NCBI GenBank assembly: GCA_902763865.1
Contig: CACWTR010000024.1
Location: 1 to 38,263, forward strand
Source of the DNA: an uncultured Bacteroidales bacterium
GTDB taxonomy: Bacteria; Bacteroidota; Bacteroidia; Bacteroidales; Bacteroidaceae
Direction of reading: 5' to 3'
DNA length: 38,263 bases
This document shows positions 5,562 through 36,218 of the stretch, piece after piece. Position numbers and translations under genes: made by a program. The notes beneath the pieces are model-generated. The model was given only the letters and a program-made list of their open reading frames with translations. It had not been told where the DNA came from and searched no databases. Position 1 is the first letter of the stretch. Each line of letters opens with the position of its first letter.

Positions 5562-5627
5562 TTGCTTCATCGTGAACAAGCAATTGCTTCATCGCGATGA
5601 AGCAATTGCTCCATCGCGATGAAGCAA
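5562..5627. repeat. Array of three 22-bp palindromic units
   Basis: Units begin at 5562, 5584 and 5606, exactly 22 bp apart. Each consists of TTGCTTCATCG followed by its reverse complement. The middle unit is a perfect 22-bp palindrome, unit 1 is degenerate on its right arm, and unit 3 has one T-to-C change. The unit junction makes a 32-bp perfect palindrome at 5579-5610. It lies downstream of the SecB-like gene and before the ADP-ribosylglycohydrolase-family gene. It may act as an mRNA 3' hairpin. Confidence 0.9.
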
Positions 5628-15967: not shown

Positions 15968-18127
15968 CTAAAAGTCTTTGCCGACGAACTCGGCACCGTT
16001 GCTCAGGGCACCCTCCTTGGCTTTGGCCGAAGGCTGGCGGAAGCGGTAGGAGACACTCAGGACGATGTTGGGAAAAGTGGGGCGCACCCATGTCTCGCTG
16101 CTTAGGAGCTTGGCAGTGCGCAGGCTGTGGTAGCGGGCCGTGTGAAAGGCATCGTGCCAGACGAGCCCCAGCTGTAGTTTCCCGCCGAGCAGCGACTGGC
16201 GGGCCGCAAGGTCGAAATAGAAGTGGGCCGACTCGCGTCCCTGTGTGAGGTATTGCGGTCCGACGAAGTGTCCGTCGAACTGCAGGGAAGTGTTGCGGGC
16301 CAGGCGGAACGTGTTGATGCATCCAGCCGTGCCTGTCGTGCCGTGGGCATTGGTACAGCCTTCATAGGTGGCGCGGTAGTTGTAGAGAGAGACGGTTCCG
16401 CTCGCCGTGAGCTGCCACCAGCGAGTGGGTTTCGTGGTCAGCTGCAGCTCGAGTCCTTCGCGCCATTCGTTGCCGGCATTGATGATGCTGTCGAGCGTCA
16501 CGCCGGGCGAGTAGGCGCGTCGTATGTAATCGACCACCCCTGTCCGTCTCCTTGCGTAGGCAGTCGCGTTCAGCTGTGTCTTGCCAATCGTCTTGCGCCA
16601 GGATAGTTCCATCGAGTGGATGTACTCCGACTCGAGGTCTGGGTTGCCGATGATGCGCGTGTGGTAGTCTTCGTAGGTGATATATGGTTCCAGCTTCCAG
16701 ATGCCCGGACGGTTGGTGCGGCGAGAGTAGCCAAGCGTGAAGGTTCCTGCCGCAGAACTCGTGTAGGCAAGGTGGGCGGAGGGATAGAATTCCGTGTAGC
16801 GGCGGTGACGACTGGTGATGGTGGGCAGGTCCATGTCGTCGCGGAGATGGTCGATGCGCAGTCCTGCGTCGAATTGCCATGGGCCGAAGCGGTCGTTCAG
16901 TTGCACGTAGGGACTGTGCGTCTGCCGCCGGTAGTAGAAAGGCGCATAGAGGTCGTCCTGCCAGACGAACTGCTGCTGCGGCAGGTCCCAATAGCAGATG
17001 CGGTAGTCGCCGTTCTCGCTGTAGGTGGTGTACTGGTAGCCGGCCTCGAGCATGCCTCCTGGCCGGTAGTGGAGCTTGTAGGCGAAGGCACCGTCGCAGT
17101 CCCAGTGGTGCTCAGTCTCGTAGCCGCGTGTGCCTTCCTGTCGTGCTCCGGCGGGGTCGAACATGTTGCTCTCGGTGTATTCCTCCGAGAAGTTGTCGTA
17201 GCGCAGACGGTTGGAGATGCTGATTTCGTCGCCTCGCTCGTTGAGCTTCCATGTATAGTCGATAGCAGCCTGCATGAGGTGTTTTGTCAGCTTGTAGCGG
17301 TCGTGGCTGTCGAGGATGTCAGCCCCTCCCGTGTCGTAGGTCATGTCGCCGCCTCGCGGATTGATGGTCTTGCCGCCCATCAGGTCGATGCCGATGCGGT
17401 GCCAGCCGTTGTCGAACTCATAGCCGCCTTGTCCGGTGAAGGTGCGGAAGTTGCGGAAGCGTGTGCCGTCGGCATAGGATGTTACCGTCTCGCCGCTTCC
17501 TTCTCCCCGGGCGGGGGATGCTGTCTGTTTCTCCTGCTCGAAGCGGCTCTTGTTGTGGATGTCGGAGGCCTGTCCGCCTACATATATATTATGTTGTCCT
17601 GTGCGGTAGTTGATTTTCGCATCGAGGGAGAGGGTGCCCCATGTCGAGGCTGTGCCGTTGGCAGCCACGTCCCAGCCGTCCGTCTCATTGCGGCGGGTGA
17701 CGATGTTGATGATGCCCACGTCGCCTTCTGTCTTGTACTTGGCGGAGGGAGTGGTCAGTATTTCGATGTCGCGGATGCTGGCAGCGCCGACCATCTGCAG
17801 GGCCTCTGTGCCCGAGAGGGGCGAAGGCTTGCCATCGACATAGACCAGGAATGCCTGGCTGCCGCGGTAGGAAAGGTTGCCGTCGGCATCCACCGTGACG
17901 CTCGGCACGGCTCTCAGCACGTCGAGTGCTGTGCCGCCCTGGGCAGTGAGTACCTGCGAGGCATCCAGGCGCTGGCGGTCCAGGCGGTAGCTGATGCGTT
18001 GTCGCTGCCCGTCGATGCTCACTTCGCGCATCAAGGTCGTATCGGAACGTTCTTGTGCAAAGGATGGCTGACAGGCTATGAGAGTGAACAGGAAAAGCAG
18101 ACTGCGGGGCAGGAAGTGGAACATCAT
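15968..18127 (-). CDS. TonB-dependent receptor, outer-membrane beta-barrel family
   Basis: A 719-residue outer-membrane protein with signal peptide (SLLFLFTLIACQPSFAQ). A plug domain follows (DVLRAVPSVTVDADG, YVDGKPSPLSG, IEILTTPSAKYKTEGDVGIINI), then a long region of amphipathic strands ending in Phe, as expected for barrel insertion. It lacks the N-terminal carboxypeptidase-like domain and the roughly 1000-residue length of SusC, and no SusD partner is nearby, so it belongs to the shorter OMP_b-brl type. The substrate is unknown; divergence from the GH3 gene suggests a glycan link, but a metal or peptide ligand is possible. The start could equally be 18124. An in-frame GC palindrome copy encodes SPARGEGSGE near residue 205. 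Confidence 0.88.
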   Translation of the reverse strand: MMFHFLPRSLLFLFTLIACQPSFAQERSDTTLMREVSIDGQRQRISYRLDRQRLDASQVLTAQGGTALDVLRAVPSVTVDADGNLSYRGSQAFLVYVDGKPSPLSGTEALQMVGAASIRDIEILTTPSAKYKTEGDVGIINIVTRRNETDGWDVAANGTASTWGTLSLDAKINYRTGQHNIYVGGQASDIHNKSRFEQEKQTASPARGEGSGETVTSYADGTRFRNFRTFTGQGGYEFDNGWHRIGIDLMGGKTINPRGGDMTYDTGGADILDSHDRYKLTKHLMQAAIDYTWKLNERGDEISISNRLRYDNFSEEYTESNMFDPAGARQEGTRGYETEHHWDCDGAFAYKLHYRPGGMLEAGYQYTTYSENGDYRICYWDLPQQQFVWQDDLYAPFYYRRQTHSPYVQLNDRFGPWQFDAGLRIDHLRDDMDLPTITSRHRRYTEFYPSAHLAYTSSAAGTFTLGYSRRTNRPGIWKLEPYITYEDYHTRIIGNPDLESEYIHSMELSWRKTIGKTQLNATAYARRRTGVVDYIRRAYSPGVTLDSIINAGNEWREGLELQLTTKPTRWWQLTASGTVSLYNYRATYEGCTNAHGTTGTAGCINTFRLARNTSLQFDGHFVGPQYLTQGRESAHFYFDLAARQSLLGGKLQLGLVWHDAFHTARYHSLRTAKLLSSETWVRPTFPNIVLSVSYRFRQPSAKAKEGALSNGAEFVGKDF
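17497..17520 (-). repeat. Possible GC palindrome copy inside the TonB receptor
   Basis: On the minus strand, TCCCC-n5-GGGGA is followed by the tail GAAGGAAGC, translated as SPARGEGSGE. It is weaker than the other copies and could be chance. Confidence 0.4.
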
Positions 18128-18154
18128 ATTAGCGGTTTTTCTCTATTGCTGTTA

Positions 18155-18162
18155 CAAAAGTA
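18155..18162 (-). promoter_or_regulatory. -7 box TACTTTTG of the TonB receptor gene
   Basis: The plus strand is CAAAAGTA, which reads TACTTTTG on the minus strand, 27 bases upstream of the start at 18127. It is divergent from the box at 18206-18213. Confidence 0.65.
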
Positions 18163-18205
18163 CACATTTCCCGACAGAAAAGAAAGTAATTCGGGCAAAT
18201 AGTCG

Positions 18206-18213
18206 TATATTTG
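18206..18213 (+). promoter_or_regulatory. -7 box TATATTTG of the GH3 pair
   Basis: TATATTTG followed by CA lies 11 bases before the first start codon at 18225. Confidence 0.7.
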
Positions 18214-18224
18214 CATAAAATAAT

Positions 18225-20327
18225 ATGCTTATGATGACTAAACGCTTATTTGCCCTTTCCGTTTTTCACCTTTTCGTGTTTTCGTTTTTGCTGGCACAGC
18301 AATATCCTTATCAGAATCCCGAGCTTACTCCCCACGAGCGTGCCGTTGACCTCTGCGGACGCTTGACTCTGGAGGAGAAGACGGGGCTGATGATGAACCA
18401 GTCGAGGGCCGTGGAGCGACTCGACGTGCCGGTCTTCCAGTGGTGGAGCGAGGCGCTGCACGGCGTGGGGCGCAATGGTCATGCCACCGTCTTTCCCATC
18501 ACGATGGGCTTGGCCGCCACATTCGACACGTTGCTCGTGGAGCGTATCTTCACGGCAGTCAGCGACGAGGCCCGCATCAAACATAACCAGGCGCATCGCC
18601 TCGGCACTCAGGGCGAGCTCTACCACGGCCTTTCCTTCTGGACACCAAACATCAACATCTTCCGCGACCCGCGGTGGGGCAGGGGACAGGAGACCTACGG
18701 CGAGGACCCTTACCTGACAGCTGTCATGGGCAAGAGCGTCGTGCGCGGCTTGCAGGGACCGGCTGATGCGCGTTACCAGAAATTGCTGGCCTGCGCCAAG
18801 CACTATGCTGTCCACAGCGGACCGGAGTGGAGCCGACATCGCTTCAATGCCGAGAATATCAAGCCCCGCGACCTGCACGAGACGTACCTCTACGCTTTTC
18901 GTGCCTTGGTCAGGGAAGCGAAGGTGGCCGAGGTGATGTGTGCCTACAACCGCTTCGAGGGCAAGCCCTGCTGTGGCAGTGACCGCCTCCTGCAGCAGAT
19001 ACTGCGCCAGGAGTGGGGCTTCGAAGGACTGGTGACGAGCGACTGCGGAGCCGTAGATGACTTCTGGATGAACCACGGACACCACTACAGCAGCAGCAAG
19101 ACGGAGGCAACGAGCCAGGCCGTCAGCAGCGGAACGGACGTGGAGTGCGGCAACAGCTATGGCAGTCTGGTCGATGGGGTGCGCGAAGGCCGCATCTCGG
19201 AGGAAACCATAGACCGCAGCCTCATCCGCCTGCTCGAGGCCCGTTTCCGCTTGGGCGACTTCGATGACCCTCACCTCAATCCGTGGAACCGTATTCCTGC
19301 CAGCCGCCTCTGCTGCCGCGAGCACAGCGACCTGGCCCTCGAAGCGGCCCGCAAGAGCATCGTCCTGCTGAGGAACAACGGCACGCTGCCACTCACTAAG
19401 GGAGAGGGCGTCTTTGTCATGGGCCCGAATGCTGCAGACAGCACCATGATGTGGGGCAACTACAACGGATTCCCACTCCATACCGTCACCATCGCCGAAG
19501 GCATCCGGACGCTTTGCCCCTCGGCAGTGCTTATCCCTTGGAAGCGGGATGCCGGGCAGCAGGTCCAGGCGGCTGCGGATGCCGGGACGGTCATCTTCTG
19601 CGGCGGTATCTCGCCGAGCCTGGAAGGTGAGGAAATGGATGTGAAGGAAGATGGCTTCAAGGGCGGAGACCGCACCATGATAGAGCTGCCACAGTCGCAG
19701 CGTGACGTCCTCGCCGCACTGCACAAGGCTGGCAAAAGGGTCATCCTTGTCCTCTGTTCGGGCAGTGCCATCGGGCTGGAGCCTGAACAGCAGACGACGG
19801 ATGCCATCCTGCAAGTCTGGTATGGCGGACAGGCTGGCGGACAGGCTGTGGCCGAGGTGCTCTTTGGACACGTCAACCCCAGCGGACGGCTGCCGGTGAC
19901 GTTCTACAAGAACGTGGAGCAGCTTCCCGACTTCGAGGACTACAACATGGAGGGCCACACCTACCGATACTTCCGTGGCGAGCCGCTCTATCCCTTCGGC
20001 TACGGACTGAGCTACAGCAAGTTCGTCTATGGCAAGCCGCGCTTCGACGACGGCAATGTGAGGCTCACGGTTACGAACAAGAGCAAGCGCGACGGCACGG
20101 AAACGGTGCTTATATATATAAGTAAGGTGGGCGATGCCGATGGTCCCATCCGCACCCTGCGTGCCTTCCAGCGCGTGGAGGTGTCAGCCGGCAGCACAGC
20201 TCAGGTCAGCATCCCCCTGCCCGACTCTGCCTTCGAGTGGTGGGACGCGAAGTCCAACGCCATGCGCATCCTGCCCGGACAGTACGTCATCCATGTGGGC
20301 AACCACAGCCTCAAGATAGAAAGATAG
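18225..20327 (+). CDS. GH3 glycoside hydrolase (beta-xylosidase/glucosidase type)
   Basis: A 700-residue secreted enzyme with signal peptide (LSVFHLFVFSFLLAQQ). The N-terminal TIM-barrel contains WWSEALHGVGR, FWTPNINIFRDPRWGRGQETYGEDP and KHYAVHSGPE. The catalytic nucleophile is Asp273 in VTSDCGAVDDF. The second alpha/beta domain carries ILFCGGIS-like and LEGEEMD...DRTMIELP segments, the region holding the acid/base Glu. A fibronectin type III-like domain follows YPFGYGLSYSKF. It lacks the PA14 insertion found in many longer relatives, giving a compact enzyme. The pattern is closest to GH3 xylan beta-xylosidases. Starts at 18231 or 18234 are also possible. The second GH3 gene follows after 20 bases. 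Confidence 0.93.
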   Translation: MLMMTKRLFALSVFHLFVFSFLLAQQYPYQNPELTPHERAVDLCGRLTLEEKTGLMMNQSRAVERLDVPVFQWWSEALHGVGRNGHATVFPITMGLAATFDTLLVERIFTAVSDEARIKHNQAHRLGTQGELYHGLSFWTPNINIFRDPRWGRGQETYGEDPYLTAVMGKSVVRGLQGPADARYQKLLACAKHYAVHSGPEWSRHRFNAENIKPRDLHETYLYAFRALVREAKVAEVMCAYNRFEGKPCCGSDRLLQQILRQEWGFEGLVTSDCGAVDDFWMNHGHHYSSSKTEATSQAVSSGTDVECGNSYGSLVDGVREGRISEETIDRSLIRLLEARFRLGDFDDPHLNPWNRIPASRLCCREHSDLALEAARKSIVLLRNNGTLPLTKGEGVFVMGPNAADSTMMWGNYNGFPLHTVTIAEGIRTLCPSAVLIPWKRDAGQQVQAAADAGTVIFCGGISPSLEGEEMDVKEDGFKGGDRTMIELPQSQRDVLAALHKAGKRVILVLCSGSAIGLEPEQQTTDAILQVWYGGQAGGQAVAEVLFGHVNPSGRLPVTFYKNVEQLPDFEDYNMEGHTYRYFRGEPLYPFGYGLSYSKFVYGKPRFDDGNVRLTVTNKSKRDGTETVLIYISKVGDADGPIRTLRAFQRVEVSAGSTAQVSIPLPDSAFEWWDAKSNAMRILPGQYVIHVGNHSLKIER

Positions 20328-20347: not shown

Positions 20348-22771
20348 ATGAACTATAAAATGATTTCCGCAGCCTTCTTGGGGGCTGCTGTAGCACTGCC
20401 CGCAAGGTCGCAGTGCATTCCCCGCGACGAGAACGTGGAGGCTCAGGTGGAGGCTCTGCTGTCGAAGATGACCCTCCGCGACAAGGTTGGGCAGATGTGT
20501 GAACTGGCCATCGACAAGGTGACGCAAGGCCCTGATGCCGGCAGCGCTTCGCTGGCTGGAGGCATGCTCTCGGCAGACGCCGTCGGCGAGGTCTTCGGCA
20601 AGTACAGGGTAGGTTCCATTCTGAATGTCCCCTTCGGTGTGGCACAGACGCCCGACAAGTGGGCCGACATCATCCGTGCCCTCAACACTGCCTCTTCGGA
20701 GCAGTGCGGCGTGCCTCAGATATATGGTGTTGACCAGATACACGGGGCAAGCTACACGTGGGGTGCTACGCTCTTCCCGCAGGAGGTGGGGCAGGGTGCC
20801 AGCTTCAATCCGTCCATCCCGCACCGCATCGGGCAGATAACGGCCTACGAGAGCCGTGCCTGCCTCATCCCCTGGGTCTATTCGCCCGTCATGGACGTGG
20901 CGCGTTCCCCGCTATGGCCCCGTGTATGGGAGAGCTTCGGCGAGGACGTGCTGCTGAATGGCATCATGGCCTCGGAGCTGACGCGCGGGCTCCAAGGCGA
21001 CGACCCCAACCACGTGGGCTCCAATAACGTGGCTGCCTGCCTGAAGCACTACATGGCCTACGGCGCTGCCGTCAGCGGCAAGGACCGCACCCCGTCGAGC
21101 GTCACCTATCGCGACATGATGGAGAAGTACTTCCAGCCCTTCCGCATGTGCTGCGAGGCAGGCGCACTGAGCCTGATGGTCAACTCGGCCAACAACAATG
21201 GCGTGCCCTTCCATGCCAACCGCCGCCTCCTGACCGAATGGCTGAAGGAGGGACTCAACTGGGACGGTATGATAGTGACCGACTGGGCCGACATCGACAA
21301 TATCTGGCGTCGCGACCATGTGGCTGCCAACAAGAAGGATGCCATCGCCCTTGCCATCAATGCCGGTATCGACATGACGATGGACCCCTATTCCACGGAC
21401 TTCTGCTCTCTGCTGGAGGAACTGGTCGGCGAAGGGCGCGTCCCCCTTTCCCGCATCGACGATGCCGTGCGCCGCATACTGCGACTGAAGATACGCGTCG
21501 GCCTGATGGACCGCACGACGTGGGACATTCCCTACAAGTCTCCTTCCGCTAAGAAGAAAAAGAAGTCCTCCCCTAAGGGAGACTTAGAAAGCCTCTATCC
21601 TGACTTCGGGAGCGACAAGTTCGCAGCCGAGGCAGTCAGCATGGCCGAGGAATGCATGGTGCTGCTGAAGAACGACCAGTCGGTGCTCCCCCTGAAGCGC
21701 GGCACGAAGCTCTTCGTCTGCGGACCCAACGCCAACAGCTTCCGCACGATGAACGGCGGCTGGACCTACACCTGGCAGGGAAACATGACCGACGAGATAG
21801 CCGGCAAGATAGGCCGCTACCGCACCTTCCTCGGTGCACTGCGGCAGAAGTTCGGGGAGGAGAACGTGGCCTACAGCGAATTGGTACGCTATGACGACAA
21901 AAACTTCAACCTCGACCACAAGGTGGGCGATGCGGCAGACGTGGCCGACAAGATAGCCGGTGCCGACGTCCTGCTGGCCTTCGTCGGCGAGAACTCCTAT
22001 ACGGAGACGCCGGGCAACATCGACGACCTCACCCTCTCGCCCCGCCAGCAGGAGATGGTACGCTCGCTGGCCGCCTACGGCAAGCCCATCGTGCTCGTCC
22101 TCAACGAAGGCCGTCCCCGCATCCTCAGCGAGATAGAACCCTTGGCAAAGGCCGTGGTCCAGACCTTCCTGCCCGGCAACCACGGAGGCGATGCACTGGC
22201 TAACCTCCTTGCTGGCGATGCCAACTTCTCAGCACGCATGCCCTACACCTATCCCAAGTACCACGGCTCGTTCATCACCTACGACTGCAAGCCCTGCGAG
22301 TATGTGGAGACCATGTCGGGTGCCTACAACTACGATGCCAACACCACCGTTCAGTGGACCTTCGGCTCCGGCCTCTCCTATTCCGAAGTGAAGTACAGCA
22401 ACCTGCGAGTGGAGGCCCCGACACTCTCCGGCACCCCCTTAAAGTGGGAGAAAGGAGAGTCTCCCTTTAAGGGAGATTCAGAGGGCCCGTCTATCCTGTT
22501 CACCGTCGATGTGACCAACCAGTCGGACCGTAGCGTCCGGGAGCCGGTCCTCCTTTTCGTGTCCGACCTCGTTGCTTCGCTCACGCCCGACGTGAAGCGC
22601 CTGCGTGCCTTCACCAAAGTGGAACTCTCCGCCCACGAGACGCGTACCGTCACCCTCCGCGTCCGTCCCTCCGACCTCGCCTTCGTGAACGAAGACCTGC
22701 AGTGGACCCTTGAGCCCGGCCAGTTCCGCGCCACCATCGGCAACCAGCGCGCGGAGTTCACCCTTCGTTAG
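20348..22771 (+). CDS. GH3 glycoside hydrolase (beta-glucosidase type)
   Basis: An 807-residue exported GH3 enzyme (signal peptide ISAAFLGAAVALPARSQ). The barrel carries GVDQIHGASYTWGATLFPQ, YSPVMDVARSPLWPRVWESFGED and KHYMAYG. The nucleophile is Asp312 in VTDWADIDN. The second domain starts near residue 418 (FAAEAVSMAEECMVLLKN) and the fibronectin-like domain follows WTFGSGLSYSEV. Family relatives remove terminal beta-glucosyl units. Two short non-conserved inserts at the domain junctions, around residues 400-417 (KKKKKSSPKGDLES) and 693-714 (EKGESPFKGDSEG), coincide with in-frame copies of the GC palindrome. It forms a two-gene unit with the upstream GH3. Confidence 0.93.
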   Translation: MNYKMISAAFLGAAVALPARSQCIPRDENVEAQVEALLSKMTLRDKVGQMCELAIDKVTQGPDAGSASLAGGMLSADAVGEVFGKYRVGSILNVPFGVAQTPDKWADIIRALNTASSEQCGVPQIYGVDQIHGASYTWGATLFPQEVGQGASFNPSIPHRIGQITAYESRACLIPWVYSPVMDVARSPLWPRVWESFGEDVLLNGIMASELTRGLQGDDPNHVGSNNVAACLKHYMAYGAAVSGKDRTPSSVTYRDMMEKYFQPFRMCCEAGALSLMVNSANNNGVPFHANRRLLTEWLKEGLNWDGMIVTDWADIDNIWRRDHVAANKKDAIALAINAGIDMTMDPYSTDFCSLLEELVGEGRVPLSRIDDAVRRILRLKIRVGLMDRTTWDIPYKSPSAKKKKKSSPKGDLESLYPDFGSDKFAAEAVSMAEECMVLLKNDQSVLPLKRGTKLFVCGPNANSFRTMNGGWTYTWQGNMTDEIAGKIGRYRTFLGALRQKFGEENVAYSELVRYDDKNFNLDHKVGDAADVADKIAGADVLLAFVGENSYTETPGNIDDLTLSPRQQEMVRSLAAYGKPIVLVLNEGRPRILSEIEPLAKAVVQTFLPGNHGGDALANLLAGDANFSARMPYTYPKYHGSFITYDCKPCEYVETMSGAYNYDANTTVQWTFGSGLSYSEVKYSNLRVEAPTLSGTPLKWEKGESPFKGDSEGPSILFTVDVTNQSDRSVREPVLLFVSDLVASLTPDVKRLRAFTKVELSAHETRTVTLRVRPSDLAFVNEDLQWTLEPGQFRATIGNQRAEFTLR
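21566..21593 (+). repeat. GC palindrome copy in frame, GH3 domain linker 1
   Basis: CTCCC (21568-21572) and GGGAG (21577-21581) with tail ACTTAGAAAGCC encode SSPKGDLES. It lies between the barrel and the second domain. Confidence 0.8.
22433..22487 (+). repeat. Two adjacent GC palindrome copies in frame, GH3 domain linker 2
   Basis: A degenerate copy (CCCCCTTAAAGTGGGAG) is followed directly by a clean one. The clean copy has CTCCCTT and AAGGGAG arms around a single T, with tail ATTCAGAGGGCC. Together they encode PLKWEKGESPFKGDSEGP just after the YSEV strand of the fibronectin-like domain. Confidence 0.8.
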
Positions 22772-22779
22772 GCTACATA

Positions 22780-22823
22780 CAAAACCTCGGCCAGCGCGTT
22801 GCAAAACCTCAGTCAACGCGTCC
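22780..22823. repeat. Two 22-bp GC-rich direct repeats
   Basis: Units beginning CAAAACCTC at 22780 and 22802 match at 17 of 22 positions, with a third partial CAAAAAC at 22824. They lead straight into the palindromic array. Confidence 0.7.
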
Positions 22824-22832
22824 CAAAAACTA

Positions 22833-22916
22833 TTTTCATGACGTGAAAATTAATTTTCACGTCATGAAAATTAATTTTCAAAGTTTGAAAATTGATTTTC
22901 ACGCTTTGAAAATAAC
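22833..22916. repeat. Array of four 21-bp palindromic units TTTTCA-n5-TGAAAA
   Basis: Units start at 22833, 22854, 22875 and 22896, exactly 21 bp apart. Arms are TTTTCA and TGAAAA, the 5-bp centres differ (TGACG, CGTCA, AAGTT, CGCTT) and the spacers are TTAA, TTAA, TTGA and TAAC. Units 1 and 2 have reverse-complementary centres, so 22832-22871 is a perfect 40-bp palindrome. The stretch 22772-23042 lies between convergent genes (GH3 and purN) and holds no credible gene; it also contains a hairpin at 22930-22952. Confidence 0.92.
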
Positions 22917-22929
22917 TTTTATATCGTGT

Positions 22930-22952
22930 GGCAAGAGGTTTTGCCTCTCGCC
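22930..22952. terminator. Hairpin between convergent genes
   Basis: AGAGG-TTTTG-CCTCT extended by GGC/GCC across one mismatch. There is no T-tract, so its role as terminator for GH3 or purN is uncertain. Confidence 0.35.
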
Positions 22953-23042
22953 GCCACAGCTTATAGATACGACGATGCCGGACCTCGGGAAGTACTCTCA
23001 AGGCCGCTTTGGGGGAAATAAGTAGGGGGGTGACTCGTGAAC

Positions 23043-23612
23043 TTACAGGAGTTTCATCACTTCCTGTTCCACGACGGCGGGGAAGTGTTCCATCTCAAGG
23101 AGGTGTTCCTTGTGGGCGATGTCATCTGCCGTGTCCTCCGGAGAGATGGGGGTGCGGAACTGGGCGATAATCTCGCCGCCGTCGCAGACGGGCGAGACGT
23201 AGTGGACCGTCATGCCTGTCTCGGTCTCGCCGGCTGCCTTCACGGCCTCGTGGACGTGGTGGCCCCACATGCCTTTGCCGCCGAACTTGGGCAGCAGGGC
23301 AGGGTGGAGGTTGATGATGCGGCGCGGGAAAGCCTCGATAAGATAAGTGGGAATAAGTGGCAGGAAGCCTGCCAGCACAATGAAGTCGATGCCGTACTCC
23401 CGGAGCAGGGGCAGCATCTCGTCGGGATTGTTGAGCTTGGGCTTGCCGGCGATGGCCGTAGGAACTCCCAGCCGTTCTGCCCGCACCAGGGCGTATGCAT
23501 CGGGTTTGTTGCTGACGACCAATGCGCACTTGACGGCATCGGAATGTTCGAAGTGCCGGATCAGATTCTCGCAGTTCGTACCGCTGCCGGAAACAAAGAT
23601 GGCGATGTTCAT
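23043..23612 (-). CDS. purN: Phosphoribosylglycinamide formyltransferase PurN
   Basis: A 189-residue cytoplasmic enzyme that transfers a formyl group from 10-formyl-tetrahydrofolate to GAR, the third step of purine synthesis. The start MNIAIFVSGSGTNCENLI is the GAR-binding P-loop-like motif. Asn101, His103 (NLHPALLP) and Asp144 (PVCDGGEII) are the conserved catalytic triad. The folate-binding region includes VLAGFLPLIP. Length is normal. It is the last gene of the minus-strand operon, 19 bases after era. Confidence 0.96.
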   Translation of the reverse strand: MNIAIFVSGSGTNCENLIRHFEHSDAVKCALVVSNKPDAYALVRAERLGVPTAIAGKPKLNNPDEMLPLLREYGIDFIVLAGFLPLIPTYLIEAFPRRIINLHPALLPKFGGKGMWGHHVHEAVKAAGETETGMTVHYVSPVCDGGEIIAQFRTPISPEDTADDIAHKEHLLEMEHFPAVVEQEVMKLL

Positions 23613-32851: not shown

Positions 32852-33970
32852 TGGAATAACTTTTTCTTCCTGCTCGGCATTGTGTGTGTCGTGGTAATGC
32901 TCTTCGAGTTCGACGTGAGCTTTGTCGAACTCTGGGGCCACATCTGCCGTGCCGGTTACTGGCTCATCCCCATTGTGGGAGTCTGGATCATAGTCTATGG
33001 CATCAATGCCCTGGCGTGGATGGCGGTCATCAAGGGCAACACGGACCCCGACGAGAAGGTTGGCTTCTGGCGCATCTACAAGCTCACCATTACCGGCTAT
33101 GCCCTCAACTACGCCACTCCGGTAGGAGGCTTGGGCGGAGAGCCCTACCGCATCATGGAGCTGAGCAAGGACATTTCCAAGCAGCACGCCACTTCTTCCG
33201 TCATCCTCTACGCGATGTTCCACGTCTTTGCGCACTTCTGGTTCTGGTTCACGTCAGTATTCCTCTACCTCGCACTCTCGTTGGCGGGCGACCTCCCCAT
33301 CGATGCTACGGTCGGCACCGTGCTCGGCATCATCATTCTTTTCTGCTTGATTGCCTTCTACCTCTTCTACAGGGGCTACAAGTACGGACTTGTCGTGCGG
33401 CTCATCCGTTGGATAGGTCATTTGCCGGGGCTGAGGGGATGGAGTGGAAGGTTCCTCGAGGCGCATGCCGAAGCCTTGCATAACGTCGATGCACAGATAG
33501 CGGCCTTGCACCAGCAGAGCCGCGGGAACTTCTATGCGGCCCTGGGCCTCGAATACCTCTCGCGCATAGTGCAGAGCTCCGAGGTGCTCTTCATGCTCCT
33601 GCTTCTTGGCATCGACGGTGGCGGCGGCTTCAGCGGCATCATGCTCACTTTCCTCCACAGCATCCTCATCGTCTCGCTGACGACGCTGCTGTCGAACCTG
33701 ATTGGCTTCCTGCCCATGCAGCTCGGCGTGCAGGAAGGTGGTTTCGCTGTCTCTACAGCCGCTATGGGCCTCAGCGTGGAGCAGGGCTTCTTCGTCAGCA
33801 TCATCTGCCGCGTCCGCGAGATTATCTGGATTGTCATCGGCATTGCCCTCATGAAGGTGGGGCAAGGGGCAAGGGGCAAGGAGCAAGGAGCAAGGAGCAA
33901 GGGGCAAGGGGCAAGGGGCAAGGAGCAAGGAGCAAGTGGCAAGGGGCAAGAGGCAAGGATGAATACTTAA
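32843..33970 (+). CDS. YbhN/LPG synthase transmembrane-region family protein
   Basis: A 375-residue multi-pass membrane protein of the lysylphosphatidylglycerol synthase TM region family, with about eight hydrophobic helices. Family markers are GYALNYATPVGGLGGEPYRI (helix 3-4 loop) and the C-terminal SNLIGFLPMQLGVQEGGF. Relatives act in lipid or lipid-linked sugar flipping; no catalytic LPG synthase domain is attached. The start is immediately after the CDP-alcohol transferase stop (TAA-ATG), so the two are coupled. The core ends near IGIALMKVG. The remaining 35 residues (GQGARGKEQGARSKGQ...) are encoded by the 14-copy heptamer array and are unlikely to belong to the fold. Confidence 0.88.
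   Translation: MVNWNNFFFLLGIVCVVVMLFEFDVSFVELWGHICRAGYWLIPIVGVWIIVYGINALAWMAVIKGNTDPDEKVGFWRIYKLTITGYALNYATPVGGLGGEPYRIMELSKDISKQHATSSVILYAMFHVFAHFWFWFTSVFLYLALSLAGDLPIDATVGTVLGIIILFCLIAFYLFYRGYKYGLVVRLIRWIGHLPGLRGWSGRFLEAHAEALHNVDAQIAALHQQSRGNFYAALGLEYLSRIVQSSEVLFMLLLLGIDGGGGFSGIMLTFLHSILIVSLTTLLSNLIGFLPMQLGVQEGGFAVSTAAMGLSVEQGFFVSIICRVREIIWIVIGIALMKVGQGARGKEQGARSKGQGARGKEQGASGKGQEARMNT
33859..33956 (+). repeat. 14 tandem heptamers GGGGCAA/GGAGCAA
   Basis: Fourteen units in exact 7-bp register with few variants (GGAGCAA, GTGGCAA, GAGGCAA). Because seven is not a multiple of three, gain or loss of a unit changes the reading frame of the protein end. Confidence 0.95.
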
Positions 33971-36133: not shown

Positions 36134-36218
36134 GTTTCCCGTGGGAAACTTTTTGTTTCCACTGGAGAAACAAATTGTTTCTCGCGGGAAACAACACGAT
36201 TCAACGTGTTGAACCATG
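36134..36218. repeat. Array of four palindromic units, 21-22 bp period
   Basis: Units start at 36134, 36155, 36177 and 36198. The first is GTTTCCCGTGGGAAAC, the next two are variants with GTTTC and GAAAC arms, and the fourth contains the perfect 14-bp palindrome TTCAACGTGTTGAA. The gene-free stretch 36001-36278 contains only this array and AT-rich sequence with two GAATTC sites at 36066-36080. Confidence 0.88.

Follow-up and report, generated by a model that had tools for sequence, protein, structure and literature searches.

Tandem palindromes set two helical turns apart (21–22 bp) are scattered through the draft genome of an uncultured Bacteroidales bacterium (G000; 2.91 Mb in 75 contigs), and this spacing recurs across the sampled genomes of the genus while the words that form the palindromes change. 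The new element here is that the flanks of the arrays, otherwise unrelated, carry A-tracts on a 22-bp lattice, both in this genome and in other species. Our analysis suggests that the arrays are docking sites for a putative chromosome-binding protein; our preferred reading, to which we give about an even chance, is that of two-turn lattices for protein docking, with core words that have spread by copying.

Four palindromes at an exact 21-bp step

The window, that is, the whole stretch of 38,263 bp analysed, corresponds to contig C24. Its central array, the type member of family A, spans positions 22833–22912 and consists of four TTTTCA-n5-TGAAAA units at an exact 21-bp step, none of them assigned to a strand; the last four bases of the range first given for it (22833–22916) fall beyond the units. 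Unit 1 (22833–22849) has the centre TGACG and unit 2 (22854–22870) the centre CGTCA, followed by unit 3 (22875–22891; AAGTT) and unit 4 (22896–22912; CGCTT). A preliminary description had reported the four units and their period, both of which are exact in the sequence, and had noted that two centres are reverse complements; indeed, units 1 and 2 form a perfect 40-bp palindrome at 22832–22871, with a 20-pair arm centred on 22851.5. The left flank (22761–22832, no strand) shows A-tracts on a 22-bp lattice, as judged from the 124-flank lattice described below and from a tandem repeat, since its positions 22780–22828 are by themselves a 22-bp direct repeat; the right flank (22913–22984, no strand) is its mirror image, with T-tracts on the lattice.

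The array lies between two convergent genes identified with Pfam, a glycoside hydrolase family 3 gene on the plus strand (20348–22771), ending 61 bp ahead of it, and a PurN-like formyltransferase gene on the minus strand (23043–23612). The best 20 matches of the PurN-like product show 77–91% protein identity and come from genomes of uncultured Bacteroidales, Prevotellaceae and Bacteroidaceae, with titles that in many cases indicate a ruminant gut. A window scan for at least three palindromes with a common period of 15–35 bp returned only this array and one at 36134; a third, at 5562, was missed by the scan tolerances, yet it is the top-scoring 22-bp tandem repeat in the window. Elsewhere, the window contains the 7-mer GGGGCAA repeated about 14 times (33859–33958), close to an ORF start near 33970, and a tandem pair of tRNA genes of equal Rfam score on the minus strand (591–766).

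Three dispersed families of arrays

Family A is present in many copies. Its two-unit pattern gave 208 genome matches at up to three mismatches (reversed control, 0), and four-unit searches at the same threshold located 66–67 places, in 63 of which all eight arms are perfect. Only three or four places are thus faulty, one of them being the outer unit of a five-unit array, although the search reached copies with up to three mismatches and more decayed ones fall outside its range; likewise, the count of 504 perfect arms out of 504 follows from selection, as it was drawn from the 63 arrays listed without arm mismatch. These 63 arrays, of which 55 are distinct in sequence, show nine classes of 5-bp centres and four classes of 4-bp linkers, and the common unsymmetric centres and linkers are found in both orientations. 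CGTCA/TGACG is the centre in 118 of the 252 units. Two AA-type and two CG-type units occur together in 47 of the 55 distinct arrays, against 20.6 ± 3.5 expected, and in 44 of those 47 the mirror-related units are of unlike type; complementarity is above expectation between units 1–2 and 3–4, and below it between 2–3 and 1–4. This rule may result from descent, from inversion between arms or from avoidance of giant palindromes.

The other two arrays in the window have the period and unit form first claimed for them, but all three turned out to belong to dispersed families. The family B array (5562–5627, no strand) contains three TTGC-n14-GCAA units of 22 bp and is immediately flanked at either end by a CACGWCG-like site; its junction has 48 forward genome matches at one mismatch (control, 1), and among 22 arrays inspected 19 contain three units and three contain four. 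The family C array (36134–36192, no strand) is formed by three units GTTTC-n6/7-GAAAC with a 21–22 bp period, and a fourth dyad, TTCAACGTGTTGAA (36200–36213, no strand), sits on its lattice; the family C pattern has 26 forward genome matches (control, 0).

A further type of tandem palindrome was seen in this genome and in one relative, comprising box arrays with a 9-bp step: TCTAGA boxes in L094 (1297–1351) and L097 (11569–11641), and CTATAG in L005 (8158–8212). There is also a 22-bp period without clear palindromes, consisting of 7.8 copies of the direct repeat CGAGTCGTCGGCCATAAGCTCA in L098 (17283–17454; G000 contig C4), just downstream of a gene end and near a RAYT gene.

The lattice extends beyond the palindromes

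The 75-bp flanks of family A arrays have a mean identity of 37%, and identical 80-bp cores at unlinked places (six groups of two or three) have unrelated flanks. Nevertheless, 124 flanks of the 63 family A arrays carry AAA near positions −6, −28, −50 and −72, mirrored on the opposite side, with a weak AACGCGT between the A-tracts and a signal that fades past about 72 bp. The same A-tract lattice is present in 48 flanks of 24 family A arrays from other species. In family B flanks (n = 40, from 20 of the 22 arrays, two pure TACATGTA arrays being left out), a strong CRCGWYG lies some 10 bp beyond the core, at a distance of one lattice step from the first dyad. Families A and B both have a site resembling ACGCGT or CACGWCG at one lattice step from the core, and for family C an outer site was seen by eye in three arrays. 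Thus, the palindrome sequences, described at first as unrelated, do differ in their words but share part of their layout. Because the flanks carry the lattice, the constrained stretch is wider than the palindromes, reaching about 220 bp in family A and 100 bp in family B; a docking lattice should display helix-phased sites that reach past its conserved core, as these arrays do.

The spacing is shared within the genus

For the period test, dyad symmetry was scored everywhere and three dyads were chained at any period of 14–40 bp, with units at least 50% identical; one Markov copy of each set served as control. The preliminary description had proposed that selection acts on spacing, against which 21–22 bp being no commoner than other spacings would speak; the scan found an excess at 21–22 bp. 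In our genome (430,772 bp, a sample that was chosen once the family A positions were known, is enriched for this family and includes the window), 21 of the 30 similar-unit triplets fell at 21–22 bp, with none in the Markov copy. The proportion was 38 of 51, with one in the Markov copy, in 14 other genomes of the genus (800,000 bp, mostly contigs with a purN or era match, and including one array, in G034, seen beforehand). Conversely, 20 other genera of the family (593,845 bp) yielded 17 triplets, two of them at 21 bp and none at 22 bp. When similar units were not demanded, the contrast was weaker but in the same direction: at 21–22 bp we found 24 of 56 in our genome (Markov, 1/13), 30 of 88 in the genus (1/32) and 12 of 74 at purN loci (5/31), and outside the genus 6 of 48 at 21 bp and none at 22 bp (1/25).

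Among these 14 relatives within the genus, 12 had at least one 21–22 bp array at the triplet threshold, and a separate palindrome scan found one array in a thirteenth, G117. The words include AAATCC..GGATTT, GGTTAACC, GGGGATTGCAATCCCC, TACATGTA, CTGCAG and ATAAGTCC..GGACTTAT, among others, and some of them (TACATGTA and a TTnGCnAA form) were found again in several genomes of the genus. Family A itself occurs in 8 of the genus's 101 genomes, counting our own, and is numerous in two of them; it was absent from 142 genomes that belong to other genera of the family and from 118 other genomes of the order. It had been proposed that selection acts on spacing and symmetry and not on sequence. The first part stands, as 21–22 bp spacing and dyads recur with mostly unrelated words; the second does not, because the proportion of family A places with perfect arms indicates that selection or homogenization also acts on sequence within a family.

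These data also bear on the idea that the arrays are functionless by-products of replication, in which slippage or template switching would multiply a palindrome and arm-to-arm inversion would shuffle it. Centres and linkers in both orientations are as expected from loop inversion, and some flanks contain local 22-bp direct repeats. Nevertheless, a single period in many families of one genus, with none at 22 bp outside it, the nearly fixed number of three or four units and the A-tract lattice in unrelated flanks make this origin very unlikely.

Arrays are intergenic, mutually distant and resemble DNA sites

Genes were predicted with a codon-usage script for the position, orthology and spacing tests. 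None of the 63 family A arrays lies within a predicted gene, which counts in favour of docking lattices and led us to reject a coding role, considered because the array frame is open on both strands (by eye; 21 bp equal seven codons). Leaving aside four arrays at contig ends, 16 are located between convergent, 30 between tandem and 13 between divergent genes (n = 59). Hence, the early generalization that arrays lie 3′ of a gene holds for the three in the window, and genome-wide it is only a preference.

This preference is one of the reasons to consider that the arrays could be RNA elements, whose hairpins at the ends of transcripts would protect the mRNA or terminate transcription: convergent gaps hold 16 of the 59 arrays but make up 18 of 153 background gaps (P = 0.011), and of the 30 arrays in tandem context, 25 are closer to the 3′ end of the upstream gene. 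Predicted RNA folds of the arrays are also strong (z = −9.2 and −7.3), as for any palindrome, and their stability counts against the docking reading. In addition, the window array contains two terminator-like matches, against 0.4 in shuffles, as well as two promoter-like matches (0.2 in shuffles). The terminator-like matches sit on the 40-bp palindrome, one per strand, with 5 GC out of 18 pairs; an intrinsic terminator has a G+C-rich stem followed by a T run. Against RNA elements, family A stems are A+T-rich, and the arrays in the window had no match in Rfam.

If the arms paired as RNA hairpins, changes in either arm should be compensated in its partner. Family A from genome G085 allows this comparison, with arms of the forms TTTTCA (228), TTATCA (93) and TTTCCA (39) in 45 arrays; these were taken from the 50 forward arrays listed, out of 61 counted, after discarding three duplicates and the two overlapping frames in which a five-unit array appeared. 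The arms were unlike in 121 of the 180 units, and pairs with the same variant in both arms numbered zero, with about 14 expected. The lack of compensated variants favours half-sites of DNA over RNA stems, and it argues against an RNA stem as the form in which the arrays act. Likewise, centres allowing wobble pairing on the sense strand were not in clear excess over non-wobble centres (48 versus 44, from the 30 arrays between same-direction genes of our genome). With no compensatory arm changes, no strand bias and sites between divergent genes, protection of mRNA 3′ ends, one of the functions first put forward, became less likely, and RNA elements in general seem to us improbable.

The arrays are also evenly distributed. 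Against a null built from real intergenic spacing on 33 contigs of known extent, with each family B place being a junction match counted as one array, 2 of the 64 gaps among A, B and C arrays were shorter than 4 kb, versus 12.3 expected (P = 0.0003), and omitting the window contig altered the spacing result little. The effect was pronounced within families, with one same-family gap below 8 kb (7.6 expected). Between different families, two gaps were below 4 kb (8.3 expected, P = 0.008), but exclusion is weak below 8 kb, with 14 gaps (15.6 expected). In G085, none of 17 gaps between family A arrays was shorter than 11 kb (4.9 expected; contig extents assumed except for two). Mutual distance is expected of anchors that organize a chromosome, and we count this over-dispersion in favour of docking lattices, and the weak exclusion between families against them.

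Copying, conservation and a possible mobile origin

The main rival to docking lattices is that the arrays are selfish short repeats with a fixed spacing: non-autonomous mobile palindromes, REP- or MITE-like, amplified in single lineages. Here, the spacing would reflect recognition by a putative copying enzyme, and target immunity or recombinational loss of close pairs would produce the even spread; this is a possibility that we rate well short of even. Exclusion stronger within than between families fits it, as does the avoidance of the starts of divergent genes, the nearest array being 101 bp away. The identical 80-bp cores at unlinked places can be explained in the same way, and, with their unrelated flanks, they suggest that core words may have been copied or converted between sites. 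The patchy occurrence of family A, strongly amplified in two genomes but with few or no copies in most others of the genus, also fits a selfish repeat and speaks against docking lattices.

The position of the arrays is mostly not conserved between species. For 88 arrays of our genome, 49 flanking-gene queries matched the DNA of relatives that we examined, and clear orthologous gaps were obtained for four arrays, two of them with one relative, one with two and one with four. One such gap, in L189, holds a different 22-bp array, of CTGCAG, and three are without array, all judged by eye; that most comparable gaps are empty counts for the selfish repeat and against docking lattices. A fifth pair, between the window array and L044, is doubtful, as one neighbour is 51% identical, and a sixth was discarded as an artefact within one gene. 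On the purN side, the only one compared, G034 contains a three-unit TACATGTA array beside this gene. In favour of docking lattices we count an orthologous family A pair from two other species (L105 and L114) that is identical over 213 bp, including the core and part of both flanks, with the DNA just upstream differing in about one base out of three; nearby coding stretches are also nearly identical, so recent exchange is a possible source.

Other observations fit a selfish repeat less well: the flanks are not copied with the core and yet bear the same lattice, and faulty four-unit copies are few at up to three mismatches. Nor did a Y1_Tnp search reveal an associated enzyme. The sole strong hit is a RAYT/Y1 transposase gene in L098 (G000 contig C4; Y1_Tnp match at 17736–18074) that adjoins three GC-rich CCCAGGGC..GCCCTGGG palindromes, a separate REP family, gene and palindromes together covering about 17587–18338, and no A, B or C array occurs within the 2.5 kb scanned around it. 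We thus rejected copying of family A by RAYT, and the terminal-repeat-copying enzyme suggested in the preliminary description lost ground accordingly. An origin from phages, plasmids or viruses was also rejected at the sensitivities used, since viral contigs gave no match to two exact array patterns, and plasmids and phages none to a 151-base query (BLAST with the low-complexity filter on). That the arrays are remnants of one known insertion element had been named as an outcome that would refute the preliminary description; our searches linked them to no such element.

Comparison with known systems

Plasmid iterons and centromere arrays likewise consist of protein-binding sites with a step of about one or two turns of the helix, and are usually direct repeats confined to one origin or centromere; the arrays described here are instead palindromic and scattered in dozens of places. 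Neither are they CRISPRs, as family A has 4-bp linkers of four classes and no unique spacers. Full-length likeness, as among MITE copies, is missing too, since family A homology ends at AAA(A/G)(C/T)TA outside the core. REPs, MITEs including BrickBuilt, and PINSR match the arrays only in part.

REPs of the GTAG and CGTC families and BIMEs are, according to the portion of PMC3733652 consulted, small intergenic palindromes whose copies number in the tens to hundreds; a genome contains several families, and pairs of unlike units are frequent, the CGTC type having no known transposase. The same text gives them an unpaired GTAG/CGTC end tag and describes them mostly as singlets or dimers, the CGTC type with a stem of 8–9 bp, a loop of 4–5 bases and a CCA-like tail; no constant 21–22 bp lattice with exchangeable words is described there (PMC3733652). 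The A, B and C arrays do not adjoin a RAYT gene, as GTAG-type REPs do, and no GTAG shows up in the consensus derived from 124 flanks of family A and 40 of family B, family A reading outward as TAGTTTT/TAACTTTT. In contrast to the CGTC type, family A arms measure 6–7 bp and CGTCA/TGACG is a centre, not an end tag.

BrickBuilt is a Porphyromonas gingivalis MITE with 19 elements of 1 to 22.8 direct repeats of 23 nt, long leader and tail segments and small inverted ends, reported only in that species in the sections of PMC4596501 available to us. It resembles our arrays in occurring in Bacteroidales and in being dispersed, intergenic and Rfam-negative, with short tandem units, flanking parts and predicted stem-loops. 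On the basis of its description in those sections (PMC4596501), the arrays are set apart by palindromic units of 21–22 bp nearly fixed at three or four, by their many word families and phased A-tract flanks, and by having no common leader or tail. PINSR, from Prevotella intermedia and P. nigrescens, is an imperfect 188-bp intergenic repeat with 177–184 copies, no terminal inverted repeats and no known function, as far as the part of PMC4755523 consulted tells. It shares with the arrays the Prevotella lineage and an intergenic location, and it may prove a cousin of them, although as described in that part it is one sequence family and a two-turn palindromic lattice is not mentioned (PMC4755523). 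Our literature search, largely outside subscription journals, retrieved no description of this lattice. As for proteins that might bind it, the HU protein of P. gingivalis has been studied regarding a 77-bp inverted repeat (PMC3969353, in the part available), and HU-like proteins would by analogy be one candidate among many.

A proposed docking lattice with changing words

In the docking-lattice reading, dyad sites every two helical turns over a symmetric stretch of about 100–220 bp would let dimers of a putative protein line up next to each other along a single face of the helix. The conserved palindromes, three or four in number, would be strong central sites and the degenerate A-tract/ACGCGT flanks weaker ones, onto which the putative complex may extend. 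As intergenic and mutually distant anchors, the arrays would bend or organize the chromosome; copying or gene conversion would carry core words from site to site with the lattice kept, and each lineage would probably change its words. We also propose, more tentatively, a genus-wide chromosomal docking-lattice system of constant geometry, with several word sets per genome and words turning over by species.

Dispersed palindromes are already known in bacteria; what is conserved here is the spacing, equal to two turns of the helix, and from one species to another it is the sequence that is replaced. Through the phasing of the units, an old question, namely if such repeats are selfish or have a structural role, becomes open to a direct test. 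If the docking reading is true, the arrays would be a bacterial counterpart of the concerted evolution of satellite DNA, with a fast-changing DNA-protein specificity at evenly spread anchors, and it predicts a DNA-binding protein with quickly changing specificity in one genus of gut bacteria.
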